NCBI RefSeq assembly: GCF_021391395.1
Contig: NZ_CP090059.1
Span: 1,783,001-1,847,000, forward strand
DNA from: Sphingomonas cannabina
Lineage (GTDB): Bacteria > Pseudomonadota > Alphaproteobacteria > Sphingomonadales > Sphingomonadaceae
Length of the DNA: 64,000 nucleotides
Direction: 5' to 3'
A program made the position numbers and the translations under genes. The notes beneath the pieces are model-generated. The model worked only from the letters and a program-made list of their open reading frames with translations. It made no database searches and was not told the DNA's origin. This document shows, one piece after another, positions 8,108-44,139 of the stretch. How positions within the stretch are numbered: position 1 is the stretch's first letter; every line of letters begins with the position of its first letter.

Positions 8108-9054
8108 TCGCCGCGCGCGCCCATATCCCCGTGCTGCTCGACGAGGTCGTCGACGCGCTCGCCATCGCCCCCGGCGAGCGCCACGTCGACGCGACCTTCG
8201 GAGCGGGCGGCTACACGGTCGCGTTCCTCGAGCGGGGAGCCGAGGTGGCCGCCTTCGATCGCGACCCTACCGCGATCGAAGGCGGTCGACCCCTCGCCGC
8301 CGAGGCGGATGGCCGGCTGATCCTGATCGAGGCGCCGTTCTCGGCGATGGAGAGCGAGCTCTCCGCCCGCGGCCTCGTCCCCGTCGACGGCGTGACGATG
8401 GACATCGGCGTCTCGTCGATGCAGCTCGACCAGCCCGATCGCGGCTTCTCCTTCCAGGCCGACGGCCCGCTCGACATGCGGATGAGCCGTTCGGGCATGA
8501 CCGCCGCCGACTTCGTCAACACCGCCGACGAGGGCGAGATCGCCGACGTGCTCTACCATTATGGCGAGGAGCCGCGCGCCCGCCGCGTCGCGAAAGCGAT
8601 CGTCGCCGCGCGCCCGCTCGCGCGCACCGGCGAGCTGGCCGAGGTCGTGCGCAAGGCGCTCGGCCACAAGCCGCATGACAAGAAGGATCCGGCGACCCGC
8701 ACCTTCCAGGCGATCCGCATCCATCTGAACCGCGAGCTCGACGAGCTGAGCGAAGGGCTGGAGGCGGCCGAGCGCGTGCTGAAGCCGGGCGGCCGGCTGG
8801 CGGTGGTGACCTTCCACAGCCTCGAGGACCGCATGGTCAAGCGCTTCCTGCGCGAGCGCAGCGGCGGCGAGCCCGCGGGATCGCGCCACCGCCCGGCGGC
8901 GCAGGCGGCGAACGATCCGAGCTTCGAGACACCGGCGCGGGCGGTCCGCGCCAGCGAGAGCGAGATCGCGCGTAACCCGCGCGCGCGGTCGGCGACGTTG
9001 CGGGTGGCGCGGCGCACCGCCGCTGCGCCGTGGCGTACCCTGGGAGACAAGTAA
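8104..9054 (+). CDS. rsmH: 16S rRNA (cytosine(1402)-N(4))-methyltransferase RsmH
   Basis: SAM-dependent methyltransferase of 316 residues that modifies C1402 in the ribosomal decoding centre. The N-terminal [13 protein letters not shown] segment, the SAM-binding [10 protein letters not shown] loop, the [19 protein letters not shown] block and the [18 protein letters not shown] block are all family hallmarks. The start at 8104 overlaps the mraZ stop (ATGA), and the stop overlaps the start of the ftsL-like gene (TAATG). The length is normal for the family. Confidence 0.96.
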
Positions 9055-39217: not shown

Positions 39218-39993
39218 AGGACATCGACGACACCCAGGCTCCCCTGCTGGAGCACCTGATCGAGCTGCGCCGGCGCCTGCTCTACTGCGTGGTCGCGCTG
39301 GTGGTATGCTTCGGCGCCTGCTTCTACTTCGCGCGTGAGATCTTCGCCTTCCTGGTCCAGCCGCTTGTGCACGCAGGCCAGAACAAGGTGATCTTCACCC
39401 AGATCTTCGAGGCGTTCTTCGTCCAGGTGAAGGTCGCCTTCTTCGCGGCGATGATGATCTCGTTCCCGGTGATCGCCAATCAGCTCTGGCAGTTCGTCGC
39501 TCCCGGCCTCTACCGCAACGAGAAGCGCGCGCTGCTGCCGTTCCTGATCGCGACCCCGGTGCTGTTCATCGCCGGCGCGGCGCTCGCCTATTACATGGCG
39601 ATCCCGATCGCGCTGCATTTCCTGCTGAGCTACCAGGGCGATCTCGGCGGCGTGCAGCAGGAAGCGCTGCCGTCGGTCGGCAATTATCTGTCGTTCGTGA
39701 TGCAGTTCCTGTTCGCGTTCGGGCTCGCCTTCCTGCTGCCCGTCGTACTGATGCTGCTCGAGCGGGCCGGCATCGTCACGCGCAAGCAGCTGGTGAGTGC
39801 GCGCCGTTACGCGATCGTCGCGGCGTTCGGCCTGGCGGCGGTGCTGACGCCGCCGGACATCGGCTCGCAGCTCCTGCTCGCGATTCCCCTTGTGCTGCTC
39901 TACGAGCTCGCGCTGATCGGCATCTGGTTCACCGAGCGCCAGCGAAGCCGCGAGGCCAAGCGGGCCGAAACCACCGAGGCTACCGAGGCCTGA
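39214..39993 (+). CDS. tatC: Sec-independent protein translocase TatC
   Basis: Six-helix membrane protein of 259 residues that recognises the twin-arginine signal. The N-terminal [17 protein letters not shown] block, [29 protein letters not shown] and the [21 protein letters not shown] segment are hallmark TatC sequences. GTG start, overlapping tatB. A bidirectional-looking hairpin follows directly. A likely client in this window is the DUF1501 protein. Confidence 0.96.
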
Positions 39994-40024
39994 AAAAGGG
40001 GCCGCGCACTCGGCGCGGCCCCTT
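39993..40024 (-). terminator. Hairpin between tatC and the convergent lipoprotein gene
   Basis: A 12-bp stem AAGGGGCCGCGC/GCGCGGCCCCTT with a 5-base loop. On the minus strand the stem runs into a TTTTT tract, giving a good terminator for the entericidin gene. On the plus strand the tail is weak, so it would stop tatC transcription less well. Confidence 0.8.
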
Positions 40025-40032
40025 CCATATAA

Positions 40033-40167
40033 TTACTTAGCGTCGTTGGCGGTCTTGGCGACCGTGTTACCGGCGGACGAGACGTCCCGGCCGACGCCTT
40101 CGACGGTGTTGCACGCGCCCAACGCCAGCGTGGCGGCGAGAGCGAGGGCAGCGGTGATCTTGCGCAT
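40033..40167 (-). CDS. Entericidin A/B family small lipoprotein
   Basis: A 44-residue frame. It reads MRKITAALALAATLALGAC, a lipoprotein signal whose lipobox LGAC puts the lipidated cysteine at residue 19. A short mature peptide of 26 residues follows, with NTVEGVGRDVSS and NTVAKTANDAK. This is the entericidin pattern (TxxGxGxDxxxxG) of stress-induced membrane lipoproteins such as E. coli EcnB. It has a perfect GGAAC-N17-CGTT promoter about 40 bases upstream and a terminator just after the stop. It is therefore very likely part of the general stress regulon controlled by the neighbouring EcfG. Confidence 0.88.
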   Translation of the reverse strand: MRKITAALALAATLALGACNTVEGVGRDVSSAGNTVAKTANDAK

Positions 40168-40207
40168 GATAGACGCTCCATGAGTGATGAAATCGGTCCG
40201 GAGGTGA

Positions 40208-40233
40208 AACGACCGAAGGCGCGGTATCGTTCC
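40208..40233 (-). promoter_or_regulatory. Sigma-EcfG promoter of the entericidin gene
   Basis: On the minus strand GGAAC (40233-40229) and CGTT (40211-40208) are separated by exactly 17 bases, matching the alphaproteobacterial general-stress consensus GGAAC-N16/17-CGTT. Predicted transcription start is near 40201, giving a 5' leader of about 34 bases. Confidence 0.85.
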
Positions 40234-40282
40234 CGATAGGCGATGAACGCAGCATTGACCGGGATGCGCCGAAAGGACGGCC

Positions 40283-40387
40283 GAAAAAGATGTAGGCCCG
40301 GAAGCGTCACCGGGGGGGGAGGGTAGACGCTTCCGGGCCCATGTCTTGGATAGCGAGAGCGGGGGGGCAAAAGGTCACTATCCGAAG
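40283..40387 (-). ncRNA. Candidate sigma-EcfG-dependent small RNA, GsrN-like
   Basis: A transcript starting near 40387 would be about 104 nt. It folds into two hairpins. The 5' hairpin (40383-40348) has a 9-bp stem, GGATAGTGA with TCGCTATCC including one G-U pair, and an 18-base loop carrying seven consecutive C. The 3' hairpin (40339-40295) has a perfect 14-bp stem GGCCCGGAAGCGTC/GACGCTTCCGGGCC and a 17-base loop with eight consecutive C. A TCTTTTTC tract at about 40290-40283 follows, as in a Rho-independent terminator. A perfect EcfG promoter sits directly upstream. Caulobacter GsrN is a sigma-T-dependent sRNA with a C-rich 5' loop, and this locus has the same plan. Alternatively the 3' hairpin is only the terminator of the upstream kinase gene. 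Confidence 0.72.
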
Positions 40388-40392
40388 CGCAG

Positions 40393-40417
40393 AACGCTCC
40401 TTGTGATCCCCGGTTCC
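40393..40417 (-). promoter_or_regulatory. Sigma-EcfG promoter of the candidate small RNA
   Basis: On the minus strand GGAAC (40417-40413) and CGTT (40396-40393) are separated by exactly 16 bases, a perfect match to the general-stress consensus. It lies 29 bases after the stop codon of the PhyP-like kinase gene, and no coding frame follows it before the hairpins. Confidence 0.85.
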
Positions 40418-40445
40418 CATTTCTCGAAAAAATTTTTGATGCCGC

Positions 40446-42017
40446 TCAGTCACGCCCGGTGATGGCGATCGCGATCTCGAACGCCCCGCTCAGCGGCTCA
40501 TGGTGGAGGGGGGAGCGCAGCTGGCGGGACAGCCCTTCGATCACACGCCCATAGCGTTCTGCGATCGCCTTGCGCAGTCCCTCCGTCTCGATCAGCGCGG
40601 GAGAGCTGACCCGGACGAGGGCGTGCGTCTGGTTCTCACCGGGCTTCACCGAGATGCGGAGCTGTGCCGCCGGACTCGCGCCCATCGCCATCTCGACCAG
40701 CTCGGTGATGAGGAAGGCGACCGCCACCGCGGTATCCTGCGAGACGAGATAGGGATCGATCTCCAGCGTCAGCCCGAAATCGCGGCTGCGGCCGCTTGCG
40801 GTCGCGCGGATGTTGGCGGCCAGCTCGCTGATCACCGACCGGAGCCCGAGCCCGCGATTCTCCTCGAGCTCGGCAAAATGGTGACGGTGTACCACCGCCA
40901 GCGCATCGACGCGGCGCTGGATCGCGGCATAGGCGGCGGTCGCCTCGGCATCCACGGCGCTGCGCGCGTGGAAGTTGATCAGGCTGGTGATGACCTGGAG
41001 GTTGTTCTTGACGCGGTGATGGACCTCGCGCGTGAGCTTGGTCTGACGTGTCAGTCCCTCGGCGAGATCGGATTCGTGATCCCTGATCGTGCGGGTCAGG
41101 TCGGCGAAGGTGTCGCCGAGGTCGCGGATCTCGTGCGCGGGGATCGCTCCGAACTCGCCGGGATCGAACACGCTGCCCGGCGTATAGGCGCCGACCCGCG
41201 TGCGCAGCCGGCGGAGCGGGCGGATCAGCAGCCGGTCGACCACGAACCAGCCGATCCCCGCCGCCGCCGCCCACATCAGGATCGGCAGCAGCATCGCCGC
41301 CAGCACCGCCGAGGTGATCGGCGCGCTGTCGACCTCCATGTGCAGCACCAGCCGGTCGAGCCCGATCGGGCTGTCGTCCCGCTCGCGCCGGGACAGCACG
41401 GTGCCGGGAAGCTGGCGCAGGTCCAGCATATCCTCGTCGCGCATCAGCCTGGTGCCATAGGCGCGCAGGAAGCCGCTGGGGCGCGCGATGTCGGCGAGAT
41501 AGGCCGTCGGGAAGAAGGCGGTCGCCCGTGCCGTACCGCTGCCGCCGGTGACGCCCAGCAGCAATCCGCCCGGCAGCAGCCGCACCGCGACGGCGTTGGG
41601 GCCGGGTTTGGGCGCCTCCCGCTCGATCGGCCCACCGCAGCGAAGCTGTCCCGCGCGGTCGATCACGGCATAGCGGGCGCCGGCGGGAAGGCTGGGGGCG
41701 AACACGCCGCGCGTCCTGGCGCAGACAGCGGTGTCGCCCGGATCGGCCTCGATCGCCGCGACCGCCGATCGCAACGCATTGGCGTCGCCGACAAGCTCGA
41801 TCGCGAGCGAGCGCGCCGCCTCGCCGGTCGCGACCCTCAGCGCGGCACGATTCTCGACGTCGGCGGTGCGGGTGGTCTGGAGCGCGGCGAACACCGCGAT
41901 CAGCGCGAGCGGCAGGAGAGCCGCGCTCAGAATGAGGAACAGCTTGGCGCCTGTCGGCATCCGCGCCAGTGCTGGCAATGCGCGGTCGCCCTCAGGGAGA
42001 CCGGTAACGTCGTCCAT
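40446..42017 (-). CDS. phyP: PhyP-like membrane histidine kinase/phosphatase of the general stress response
   Basis: A protein of 523 residues with two transmembrane helices (about 24-46 and 237-260) around a periplasmic sensor of about 190 residues, a HAMP-like linker and a HisKA_2 domain. The phosphoacceptor is His334 in EVHHRVKNNLQ. The ATPase domain is degenerate: the N-box reads ELVEMAMG, so the Mg-ATP-binding Asn is Met443, and the DxGxG loop is replaced by VSSPALIE. A kinase reaction is therefore doubtful. In Sphingomonas, PhyP of the GSR locus acts as a negative regulator that dephosphorylates PhyR, which fits this degeneracy. The gene follows nepR by 10 bases. Confidence 0.85.
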   Translation of the reverse strand: MDDVTGLPEGDRALPALARMPTGAKLFLILSAALLPLALIAVFAALQTTRTADVENRAALRVATGEAARSLAIELVGDANALRSAVAAIEADPGDTAVCARTRGVFAPSLPAGARYAVIDRAGQLRCGGPIEREAPKPGPNAVAVRLLPGGLLLGVTGGSGTARATAFFPTAYLADIARPSGFLRAYGTRLMRDEDMLDLRQLPGTVLSRRERDDSPIGLDRLVLHMEVDSAPITSAVLAAMLLPILMWAAAAGIGWFVVDRLLIRPLRRLRTRVGAYTPGSVFDPGEFGAIPAHEIRDLGDTFADLTRTIRDHESDLAEGLTRQTKLTREVHHRVKNNLQVITSLINFHARSAVDAEATAAYAAIQRRVDALAVVHRHHFAELEENRGLGLRSVISELAANIRATASGRSRDFGLTLEIDPYLVSQDTAVAVAFLITELVEMAMGASPAAQLRISVKPGENQTHALVRVSSPALIETEGLRKAIAERYGRVIEGLSRQLRSPLHHEPLSGAFEIAIAITGRD

Positions 42018-42027
42018 CCGCCGGCGG

Positions 42028-42195
42028 CTACCCCAGCTTGTTCAACAGGTCGAGCATTTCGTCGGGAATCGTCTCGGAAACAGCATCCTGGTAGACCGCG
42101 CGCAATGCCTCGCCCACGCTGCGGTCGTCTCCCTTCTGCTTCCGCTCTCCCTTCTTTCGCATCTTCGGGTCAGAATCGGTCTTCTCAGAACGCAC
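42028..42195 (-). CDS. nepR: Anti-sigma factor NepR
   Basis: A 55-residue frame starting at GTG with a GGAGGGGGGAAGAC ribosome binding site. The sequence contains the NepR core LRAVYQDAVSETIPDEMLDL ending in LNKLG, the two helices that clamp EcfG or phospho-PhyR. The charged N-terminus is the usual disordered arm. A shorter ATG start at 42162 is possible (MRKKGERK). NepR holds EcfG inactive until phosphorylated PhyR titrates it. Here nepR is in an operon with phyP and divergent from phyR, not fused to ecfG. Confidence 0.9.
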   Translation of the reverse strand: MRSEKTDSDPKMRKKGERKQKGDDRSVGEALRAVYQDAVSETIPDEMLDLLNKLG

Positions 42196-42298
42196 GTCTT
42201 CCCCCCTCCGGGCCCGGCAGGGCCGGGGAACATCAAAGGCTCAGGCATCGGGTAAACGCCATTGCCGCCGCGCACAACGCGATCGTGGGCGAACGTGA

Positions 42299-42323
42299 AA
42301 CCAAATATCGCTTCGATTGTTCC
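42299..42323 (-). promoter_or_regulatory. Probable sigma-EcfG promoter of nepR-phyP
   Basis: On the minus strand GGAAC (42323-42319) and GGTT (42302-42299) are separated by 16 bases. The -35 is perfect and the -10 differs from CGTT at one position. It lies about 100 bases upstream of nepR. It would give negative feedback, since EcfG would raise its own anti-sigma factor. Confidence 0.6.
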
Positions 42324-42434: not shown

Positions 42435-43235
42435 ATGTCGCTTGGACAGCAGCTTGCGCCGCATCTTCCCTTCCTGCGGCGCTACGCCCGCGCGCTCACC
42501 GGCAGCCAGTCCGAGGGCGACCATTATGTTCGCGCCACGCTGGAAGCGATCGTCGCCGCGCCGGAAGAATTTCCGCGCGACGTCGATCCCAGATTGGGAC
42601 TCTATCGCATTTTCCAGGCGATCTGGGGCCCGACTCACCCCGACGACGGCCGCACGCCCGCGGCGCCGGAAAGCGACCATGAAGCGATCGCCCGCGCCCG
42701 GCTTGCCCGGATCGCGCCGGTTTCCCGCCAGGCGCTGTTGCTGACGGCGATGGAGGGCTTCACCACCGAGGATGCCGCCTATCTGATCGACAAGACGCCG
42801 CAGGAGGTCGACGGGCTGGTCGCCGACGCGCTGGCCGAGATCGAGAAGCAGACCCGCGCCCGCGTGCTGATCATCGAGGATGAGCCGATCATCGCCATGG
42901 ACATCGAGGCGATCGTCCGCGACCTCGGCCATGAGGTGACCGGCGTCGCCGTCACCCGCGACGAGGCGGTGGCGCTGGCGATGGAGGATCGGCCGGGGCT
43001 GGTGCTCGCCGACATCCAGCTCGCCGATGACAGTTCGGGTATCGACGCGGTCAAGGACATCCTGGCCGAGTTCCAGGTGCCGGTGATCTTCATCACCGCC
43101 TTCCCCGAACGGCTGTTGACCGGTGAGCGACCCGAGCCGACCTTCCTCATCACCAAGCCGTTCCAGCGCTCGACCGTGAAGGCGGCGATCAGTCAGGCGC
43201 TGTTCTTCGACCAGGCGACCGTGCCGGCAAATTGA
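42435..43235 (+). CDS. phyR: General stress response regulator PhyR
   Basis: A response regulator of 266 residues with an N-terminal EcfG-like sigma domain (about 1-140, including a region 4 mimic SRQALLLTAMEGFTTEDAAYL) and a C-terminal receiver (about 142-260). The receiver has the acidic pocket IIEDE, phosphoacceptor Asp193 in LADIQL, Thr221 and Lys241. On phosphorylation the sigma-like domain opens and binds NepR, freeing EcfG (partner switching). I set the start at 42435 (MSLGQQLAPHLPFLRRYARAL). It is divergent from nepR-phyP. Confidence 0.96.
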   Translation: MSLGQQLAPHLPFLRRYARALTGSQSEGDHYVRATLEAIVAAPEEFPRDVDPRLGLYRIFQAIWGPTHPDDGRTPAAPESDHEAIARARLARIAPVSRQALLLTAMEGFTTEDAAYLIDKTPQEVDGLVADALAEIEKQTRARVLIIEDEPIIAMDIEAIVRDLGHEVTGVAVTRDEAVALAMEDRPGLVLADIQLADDSSGIDAVKDILAEFQVPVIFITAFPERLLTGERPEPTFLITKPFQRSTVKAAISQALFFDQATVPAN

Positions 43236-43503: not shown

Positions 43504-44139
43504 ATGACCGAGCGTGACGACATCGCCGACGATTCCGCCGAGCCGACTGCGCCGCACGTCGCCCTGTCCGATCCCGAGTTCAAGGAGCAACTCGCGCAGG
43601 TGATCCCGCATCTGCGCGCCTTCGGGCGTTCGCTGTCGGGTAGCCGCGACCTCGCCGACGATCTGGTCCAGGAGACACTGCTCAAGGCATGGGCGGCACG
43701 CAAGCGCTTCCAGGCGGGCACCAACATGCGCGCCTGGACCTTCATCATCCTGCGCAACCTCTATCTCAGCCAGATGCGCCGCGCGCGCTTCAAGGGCGAG
43801 TGGGACGACCTAGTCGCCGATCGGCTGCTCGCCGCGCCAGCCAGCCAGGACCGGCACGTCGAGCTCACCGACATGCAGCGCGCGCTGCTCCATCTGCCGC
43901 AGCCGCAGCGCGAGGCGCTGATTCTGGTCGGTGCGGGCGGCTTCGCCTATGAGGAAGCAGCGGAGATCTGCGGCGTCGCTGTGGGCACGATCAAGAGCCG
44001 CGTCGCGCGCGGCCGGGTGGCGCTCGAATCGATCCTCAGCGAAGGGAAGCTGCCGTCACGGCGCGAGCATGATGCCGACGGCCAATCGGCGCTGGACACG
44101 ATCATGGGAGAGGTCGACGAGCTCAGCCGCGACGGCTGA
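43504..44139 (+). CDS. ecfG: General stress sigma factor EcfG
   Basis: ECF sigma factor of 211 residues. Region 2 covers about residues 30-95 with LVQETLLKAWAARKRFQ and the NMRAWTFIILRNLYL segment. Region 4 covers about 120-170 with LPQPQREALILVGAGGFAYEEAA and the GTIKSRVARGR recognition helix. These are the wording and length of EcfG (ECF15 group), the sigma factor released by PhyR-NepR partner switching. The nearby GGAAC-N16/17-CGTT promoters are its expected targets. The last 17 bases overlap the convergent second NepR-like gene. Confidence 0.95.
   Translation: MTERDDIADDSAEPTAPHVALSDPEFKEQLAQVIPHLRAFGRSLSGSRDLADDLVQETLLKAWAARKRFQAGTNMRAWTFIILRNLYLSQMRRARFKGEWDDLVADRLLAAPASQDRHVELTDMQRALLHLPQPQREALILVGAGGFAYEEAAEICGVAVGTIKSRVARGRVALESILSEGKLPSRREHDADGQSALDTIMGEVDELSRDG

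Follow-up and report, generated by a model that had tools for sequence, protein, structure and literature searches.

GsrN of Caulobacter is one EcfG-linked C-loop RNA that has been studied; it pairs with G-rich mRNAs, and targets such as UCGGGGGGCG are given in the paper that defines it (PMC5869019). From location, EcfG site and a C-rich 5' loop, the same paper predicts GsrN-like RNAs near the general stress response (GSR) loci of Rhizobiaceae, which are set beside the present RNA here by that description alone and are like it in all three respects. In the available main text of the paper, Erythrobacter litoralis serves as an outgroup without an apparent gsrN-like gene, and no word beginning with "sphingomon" occurs (PMC5869019). 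The Rfam family RF01529 bears the name CC3552, which is absent from the available text of that source (PMC5869019); we infer that RF01529 is GsrN, since published targets such as UCGGGGGGCG fit its loop. A scan of six Caulobacteraceae GSR loci against Rfam found RF01529 in five of them, and each of these RNAs directly follows a GGAAC-N16-NGTT promoter; their loops read GACGCCCCCCC(C)GACTTGA in four cases and TTGCCCCCCAACTTGA in one.

The window, i.e., the whole stretch of 64,000 nucleotides of Sphingomonas cannabina that was analysed, contains a GSR locus in which an entericidin-like gene, the candidate RNA gene, a PhyP-like kinase gene and nepR occupy the minus strand, while phyR and ecfG occupy the plus strand and tatC lies on the other side. 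The kinase is presumed to be PhyP from its gene position. The features of this locus are:

40036..40167, minus strand: entericidin-like small lipoprotein gene (Pfam PF08085)
40208..40233, minus strand: separate EcfG-type promoter GGAAC-N17-CGTT of the downstream entericidin-like gene (sequence pattern)
40283..40387, minus strand: small RNA gene, predicted transcript of ~105 nt (fold z -7.2, covariation; both ends inferred)
40284..40288, minus strand: T5 tract 3' of hairpin 2 (sequence; poorly kept among relatives)
40294..40340, minus strand: hairpin 2, 14-15-bp stem, probable terminator stem, loop with CCCTCCCCCCCC (C8 at 40312-40319)
40348..40383, minus strand: hairpin 1, 9-bp stem, loop with GCCCCCCCGC (C7 at 40361-40367)
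40393..40417, minus strand: EcfG-type promoter GGAAC-N16-CGTT of the RNA gene (sequence; conserved upstream of the modelled RNA in relatives)
40446..42017, minus strand: PhyP-like HWE/HisKA_2 histidine kinase (Pfam PF07568, PF07536)
42028..42195, minus strand: nepR, anti-sigma factor gene with GTG start, candidate target (translation, profile search)
42201..42209, minus strand: G-rich Shine-Dalgarno GGAGGGGGG of nepR, candidate pairing site (sequence; loop 2 pairing rank)
42299..42323, minus strand: EcfG-type promoter GGAAC-N16-GGTT upstream of nepR (sequence, read by eye)
42435..43235, plus strand: phyR (Pfam PF22029, PF22233, PF00072)
43504..44139, plus strand: ecfG sigma factor gene (Pfam Sigma70_r2, r4_2)

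Between tatC and the entericidin-like gene, a strong GC-rich palindrome (39992-40031) is probably a shared bidirectional terminator.

The promoter and the two hairpins displaying C7 and C8 that the initial annotation had described are present at the place it gave. Stem 1 (GGATAGTGA/TCGCTATCC) pairs positions 40383-40375 with 40356-40348, and stem 2 (GGGCCCGGAAGCGTC/GACGCTTCCGGGCCT) pairs 40340-40326 with 40308-40294 in 14 perfect pairs and one G-U pair; the predicted fold reaches -51.8 kcal/mol (z = -7.2), a stability equalled by none of 200 shuffles. The U-tract of the annotation exists as the T5 at 40288-40284, but it is weak in the window and often broken in relatives; since a simple terminator scan, which considers loops of 3-8 bases only, also found no terminator at the RNA gene, the 3' end is the least certain part of the RNA. 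The annotation had further stated that the region holds no ORF. A mechanical 156-aa TTG ORF does overlap the RNA gene on the same strand, but it is not taken as coding, because length changes in the C runs would often shift its reading frame and because covariation is seen in the stems. The RNA is single-copy in the window's genome, where the second DNA match is 16 bases long and at chance level.

Comparison of relatives supports a discrete structured RNA with C-rich loops. A DNA search of 61 genomes recovered the element from 36 of the 37 that belong to the same genus, a set that contains the window's genome, with matches that span promoter to terminator stem and mostly fade outside these limits; the sole same-genus genome without it (G007) is 84% complete. 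In a first alignment, which was not fitted to a model and held 35 of the 37 segments (the truncated L035 and L037 were left out), double-sided changes occurred in 10 of 23 pairs (44 cells); none of 500 shuffles scored as high, and slid controls were far lower. Among 91 members from many genera, in an alignment that is fitted to the model and so leans towards it, double changes were seen in 24 of 25 pairs, including eight of nine in hairpin 1 and all 14 in hairpin 2, and again 0 of 500 shuffles reached that level. The compensatory stem changes that the annotation had expected in relatives are thus found in both alignments. Stem sequences vary between members from Sphingomonas, Sphingobium and Sphingopyxis, both loops remain C-rich, and a run of at least six C is kept in 90 of the 91 members for each loop. 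Covarying stems combined with constant C-rich loops point to a structured RNA in which the loops are the working part, and by this comparative evidence the RNA gene is real.

The assignment of GGAAC-type promoters to EcfG follows the known consensus and is presumptive, at sequence level. In 88 of the 91 members, the loose pattern GGAAC-N15-17-NGTT ends 5-7 nt before the modelled RNA (it is missing in L040, L091 and L117), against 220 of 18,200 random 66-nt stretches of the same loci, and the strict pattern (N16, C/G/T-GTT) is present in 68 of 91; the EcfG-type promoter claimed from the single sequence therefore has the backing of relatives. Within the 64 kb, the promoter pattern with a spacer of 16-17 occurs three times where 0.5 occurrences are expected. 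A third GGAAC-N16-CGTT match in the window lies at 48351-48327 on the minus strand. The GGAAC-N16-GGTT site upstream of nepR suggests, as far as a promoter motif can, EcfG autoregulation of nepR-phyP. Synteny of the RNA with ecfG, phyR, phyP, entericidin and tatC recurs in many relatives, so that its proposed GSR-locus position extends beyond the window; in some genera the RNA sits at the entericidin-tatC site, away from ecfG, nepR and phyR.

Across the order, model R1 matched 84 of 296 genomes at E <= 0.01, and the wider model R2 matched 123 of 396 at E <= 0.001. After reading of weak matches, the RNA was accepted in 116 of the 396 sampled genomes at a score of at least 41 bits, a count that comes from the R2 table, whose individual matches were not all read. 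This accepted set includes 45 of the 46 same-genus genomes listed, and named carriers include Sphingomonas, Stakelama, Sphingobium, Sphingopyxis, Parasphingopyxis, Sphingorhabdus and Novosphingopyxis. With strict filters, R2 found no match in 273 of the 396 genomes; since the large R1 and R2 searches scored only 9-13 candidates per genome under such filters, absences in them are not firm. Outside the family, strictly filtered searches of the class with R1 (289 genomes) and R2 (385 genomes) gave weak matches only, none of them convincing (the R1 class matches L068-L078 were not read one by one). Matches in Caulobacter (L399, L400) and Erythrobacter (L398), without promoter or fold, were taken as chance. 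Among 80 named PhyR-bearing loci, 27 hold the RNA within a stretch of at most 10 kb on each side. Of these 80 records, 28 that were picked by hand, most of them lacking a local match, were searched over the whole genome; 22 carry the RNA at a score of at least 41 bits, among them Sphingomonas panni, Sphingomonas sp. Leaf32, Sphingobium, Sphingopyxis, Sphingorhabdus and Novosphingopyxis. In two Sphingomonas records, the RNA is absent from the GSR stretch but present in another part of the genome. Three further whole-genome matches at 27-34 bits are regarded as chance, and no match came from two Novosphingobium MAGs or from one Phenylobacterium MAG. All 17 family genomes without a model match have TatC; four of them lack both nepR and a full PhyR match, and 13 have both. 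G261, a genome of the same genus with a completeness rating of 100%, has no model match, and its nepR tract is only G4.

Several individual matches deserve comment. L131 (30 bits) seems genuine, to judge from its synteny and a near-match promoter, and stands outside the count of 116, and L126 is doubtful. L138 (G319:C1:940677-940785, minus strand) is a possible second copy in one genome; it has a GGAAC promoter, its two hairpins bear loops of C8 and C6, and the 10 kb around it gave no match to a GSR gene. L135, L136 and L137 were rejected as members for want of an EcfG-type promoter in their surroundings, and the low-scoring matches of R1 (L110-L115) and R2 (L127-L130, L139, L140), likewise promoterless, were set aside. 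In L110, L112, L137 and L139, a C-rich hairpin follows the same-looking gene end (LDLVGKI, stop) in several genera; it is perhaps a 3'-UTR-derived RNA or just a terminator.

The known target of GsrN is katG. The 17 loci read, of 20, show no recurring G-tract near the katG start, with single G4-G5 runs in four; katG was accordingly set aside as a probable conserved target. The nepR gene of Sphingomonas, read by eye, is often preceded by CAGGGGGA, AGGGGGGAATTG, TTGGGGGGTAAGCG and similar tracts, followed by TTG or GTG. According to one automatic start picker, a G run of at least five lies close to the nepR start in 30 of 43 same-genus and 14 of 21 named Sphingomonas loci, two sets that overlap in species and whose orthologous starts are not independent of each other; the background is 18 of 326 other genes of the 21 named loci. 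Within 150 nt, G5 or more occurs at nepR in 40 of the 43 same-genus loci and in nine of 19 RNA-bearing loci of other genera; among genes sampled from the window's genome, 45 of 331 have such a run. C runs of at least five occur in the same nepR stretch in two of the 43. As a control for shared ancestry, the near-start measure was applied to 15 orthologous groups of neighbouring genes; the highest reached 3/10, tatC 4/19, and the other 13 remained below 10%, while the divergent phyR group reaches 53% when the looser count within 150 nt is used. The nepR start of the window ranks second of 332 for pairing with loop 2, a ranking that ignores site accessibility; loop 1 is not selective for nepR, and 25 of 331 sampled genes score as well.

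The G-tract at nepR also serves as a Shine-Dalgarno sequence, and its occurrence follows the RNA imperfectly. RNA-bearing Sphingopyxis (g26), Sphingorhabdus and Novosphingopyxis have no G-tract at nepR, and in Sphingobium and several others the tract is mostly G4. In RNA-less genomes, ten nepR stretches could be placed (nine genomes), three of them with G5 or more somewhere; in one of these three, G094, it lies in a plausible Shine-Dalgarno place, and two Novosphingobium MAGs without a model match have G5 at nepR, though G094 and one of the MAGs carry a different C-rich RNA candidate. Outside all these counts stand L250, L251, L253, L255-L257, L260 and L265, in which nepR was unplaced or misplaced, as well as 15 of the 80 named loci, mostly Caulobacteraceae, in which the nepR core was not found, and two more in which nepR itself was not found. 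Because of the genera without a tract, the short tracts of Sphingobium and the RNA-less genomes with G5, nepR appears as a strong candidate target in Sphingomonas, not across the family.

Unlike C-loop RNAs turn up near GSR genes in related genomes. In the MAG Novosphingobium sp. 32-60-15 (L362), an EcfG-type promoter at 8586 on the minus strand, ~1.4 kb from phyR, is followed by a hairpin whose loop holds CCCCCCCTCCC and, 3' of this C-rich hairpin, by a strong terminator that stands apart from it; nepR in the same GSR locus starts with GGAGGGGGAGGCG-TTG. This RNA is like that of Sphingomonas in its GGAAC-N16-CGTT promoter, its C7TCCC loop and the G-tract nepR start in the same locus, but it has one C-rich hairpin with a separate strong terminator, and its genome has no R2 match. 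Promoter-led, differently folded C-rich RNAs also lie near phyR in G118 (L169, near 1457, minus strand) and G094 (L177, G094:C2:805023-805093), two genera in which the present RNA is absent; these two are possibly independent GsrN-like RNAs. A search for promoter plus C6 in the 17 RNA-less family genomes yielded 12 rows in eight genomes, three of the rows being one place, against six rows for a reversed control pattern; only L177 looked interesting in this search, and L169 came by another scan. As single cases found by scanning for a promoter plus C runs, L362, L169 and L177 are leads only.

The computed part of the best explanation is a conserved gene with its promoter, stems and loops and an unusual nepR start. 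From these, we consider it likely that the RNA is a trans-acting, stress-linked, mRNA-pairing small RNA of the general stress response. Under stress, PhyR would sequester NepR and EcfG would transcribe the RNA, whose two C-rich loops, held on stable stems, would bind G-rich translation starts by base pairing and there block or otherwise alter translation of the targets, the sign of regulation being presumptive. At nepR, the best candidate target and encoded just upstream, pairing would hide a G5-G6 Shine-Dalgarno before a weak TTG or GTG start and cut anti-sigma synthesis; with nepR translation blocked, less NepR would be resynthesized and the stress response would last longer. Since nepR has its own GGAAC-N16-GGTT site at 42323-42299, NepR and the RNA limiting it may both be under EcfG control. 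The full feedback loop is a tentative proposal that may well prove wrong. In it, EcfG, which apparently drives nepR as well, would make an RNA that blocks translation of EcfG's own anti-sigma factor NepR by covering a G-tract Shine-Dalgarno, and Sphingomonas would have retained this tract for the pairing; different C-loop RNAs (Novosphingobium, G094, G118) may have taken on the same task independently.

Resemblance to described RNA families leaves room for other readings. The Rfam scan of the window found no family above cut-off. The 6C RNA of actinobacteria, presumably RF01066, has two stem-loops, each with six or more C, and in this layout resembles the Sphingomonas RNA across phyla; it was absent among the matches at E <= 10 to the RNA region. 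The best weak Rfam match, Scr3202 of Streptomyces (RF02833; 30.2 bits), also has two C-rich hairpins at similar spacing, but its score is far below the cut-off of 52 and Streptomyces belongs to another phylum; the resemblance is most likely convergent. The search with a GsrN covariance model that the annotation had proposed came out negative: RF01529 has no match at E <= 10 within 39990-40500 and none above cut-off in 61 relatives (three weak matches lie elsewhere), although Caulobacter vibrioides does match. R2, conversely, misses the Caulobacteraceae GsrN-type RNAs at their positions, so that no covariance-model match exists either way. It is conceivable that the RNA descends from the same ancestor as Caulobacter GsrN, as its orthologue, and has been rearranged so far that covariance models no longer recognize it; both RNAs have an EcfG/sigma-T type promoter, as judged by motif, and begin within ~12 nt of it, the RF01529 model has 106 positions against ~105 nt, both expose a C-rich 5' loop, whose core GCCCCCCCG is common to the Sphingomonas RNA and four of the five Caulobacteraceae RNAs, and GsrN lies near GSR core genes in most Caulobacteraceae as the Sphingomonas RNA lies near ecfG, nepR and phyR in many relatives. 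The failure of the models in both directions speaks against such descent, as does topology, with a predicted closing stem round one C loop and an inner hairpin in GsrN versus two independent hairpins with two C loops in Sphingomonas; flanking by phyP, entericidin and tatC and a katG without a recurring G-tract are further differences, and common descent is on the whole unlikely. The "functional counterpart of GsrN" of the annotation survives as an analogy in promoter, location and 5' loop core, without covariance-model membership and with a different fold; by this analogy, the Sphingomonas RNA is a distinct RNA that probably resembles GsrN in its mode of action.

The role of nepR is the more evenly balanced matter. 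Its G-tract could be nothing but a ribosome-binding site tuned for low anti-sigma expression, with the RNA acting on other mRNAs; a G-tract before TTG or GTG is a plausible weak start, and some RNA-bearing taxa lack the tract while a few RNA-less ones have it, so that this reading comes close to even chances, even though few other starts in these loci have G5 or more, in the background genes as in the 15 orthologous groups. The RNA may instead bind protein through its loops and act as a sponge, whose layouts are resembled by two repeated single-stranded C-rich loops on stable stems. Against this improbable reading stands GsrN, the EcfG-linked C-loop RNA that has been studied, which pairs with G-rich mRNAs (PMC5869019). 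In the window, the RNA lies on the same strand as the entericidin-like gene and ~115 nt before it, which would also suit a 5' leader or attenuator of that gene rather than a free RNA; yet the lipoprotein gene has its own EcfG-type promoter in between, for which reason the RNA and the lipoprotein are likely separate transcripts, and some members, among them L081, L086 and L132, have no entericidin match nearby, although so short a protein is easily missed. A leader is therefore very improbable, and a free, mRNA-pairing RNA remains the preferred reading.

By comparative sequence evidence, the RNA represents a conserved small RNA family of Sphingomonadaceae outside Rfam. Neither the RNA nor RNA control of nepR was found among the listed titles and abstract openings of the open-licence literature, which is weak evidence of absence. 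Sphingomonas melonis, a GSR model species, carries the RNA (L310). With this RNA, the GSR of Sphingomonadaceae, Sphingomonas melonis included, would have a post-transcriptional arm, with nepR as one directly testable target; the RNA also allows a clean comparison of unlike RNAs that have the same C-rich loop and the same sigma factor.
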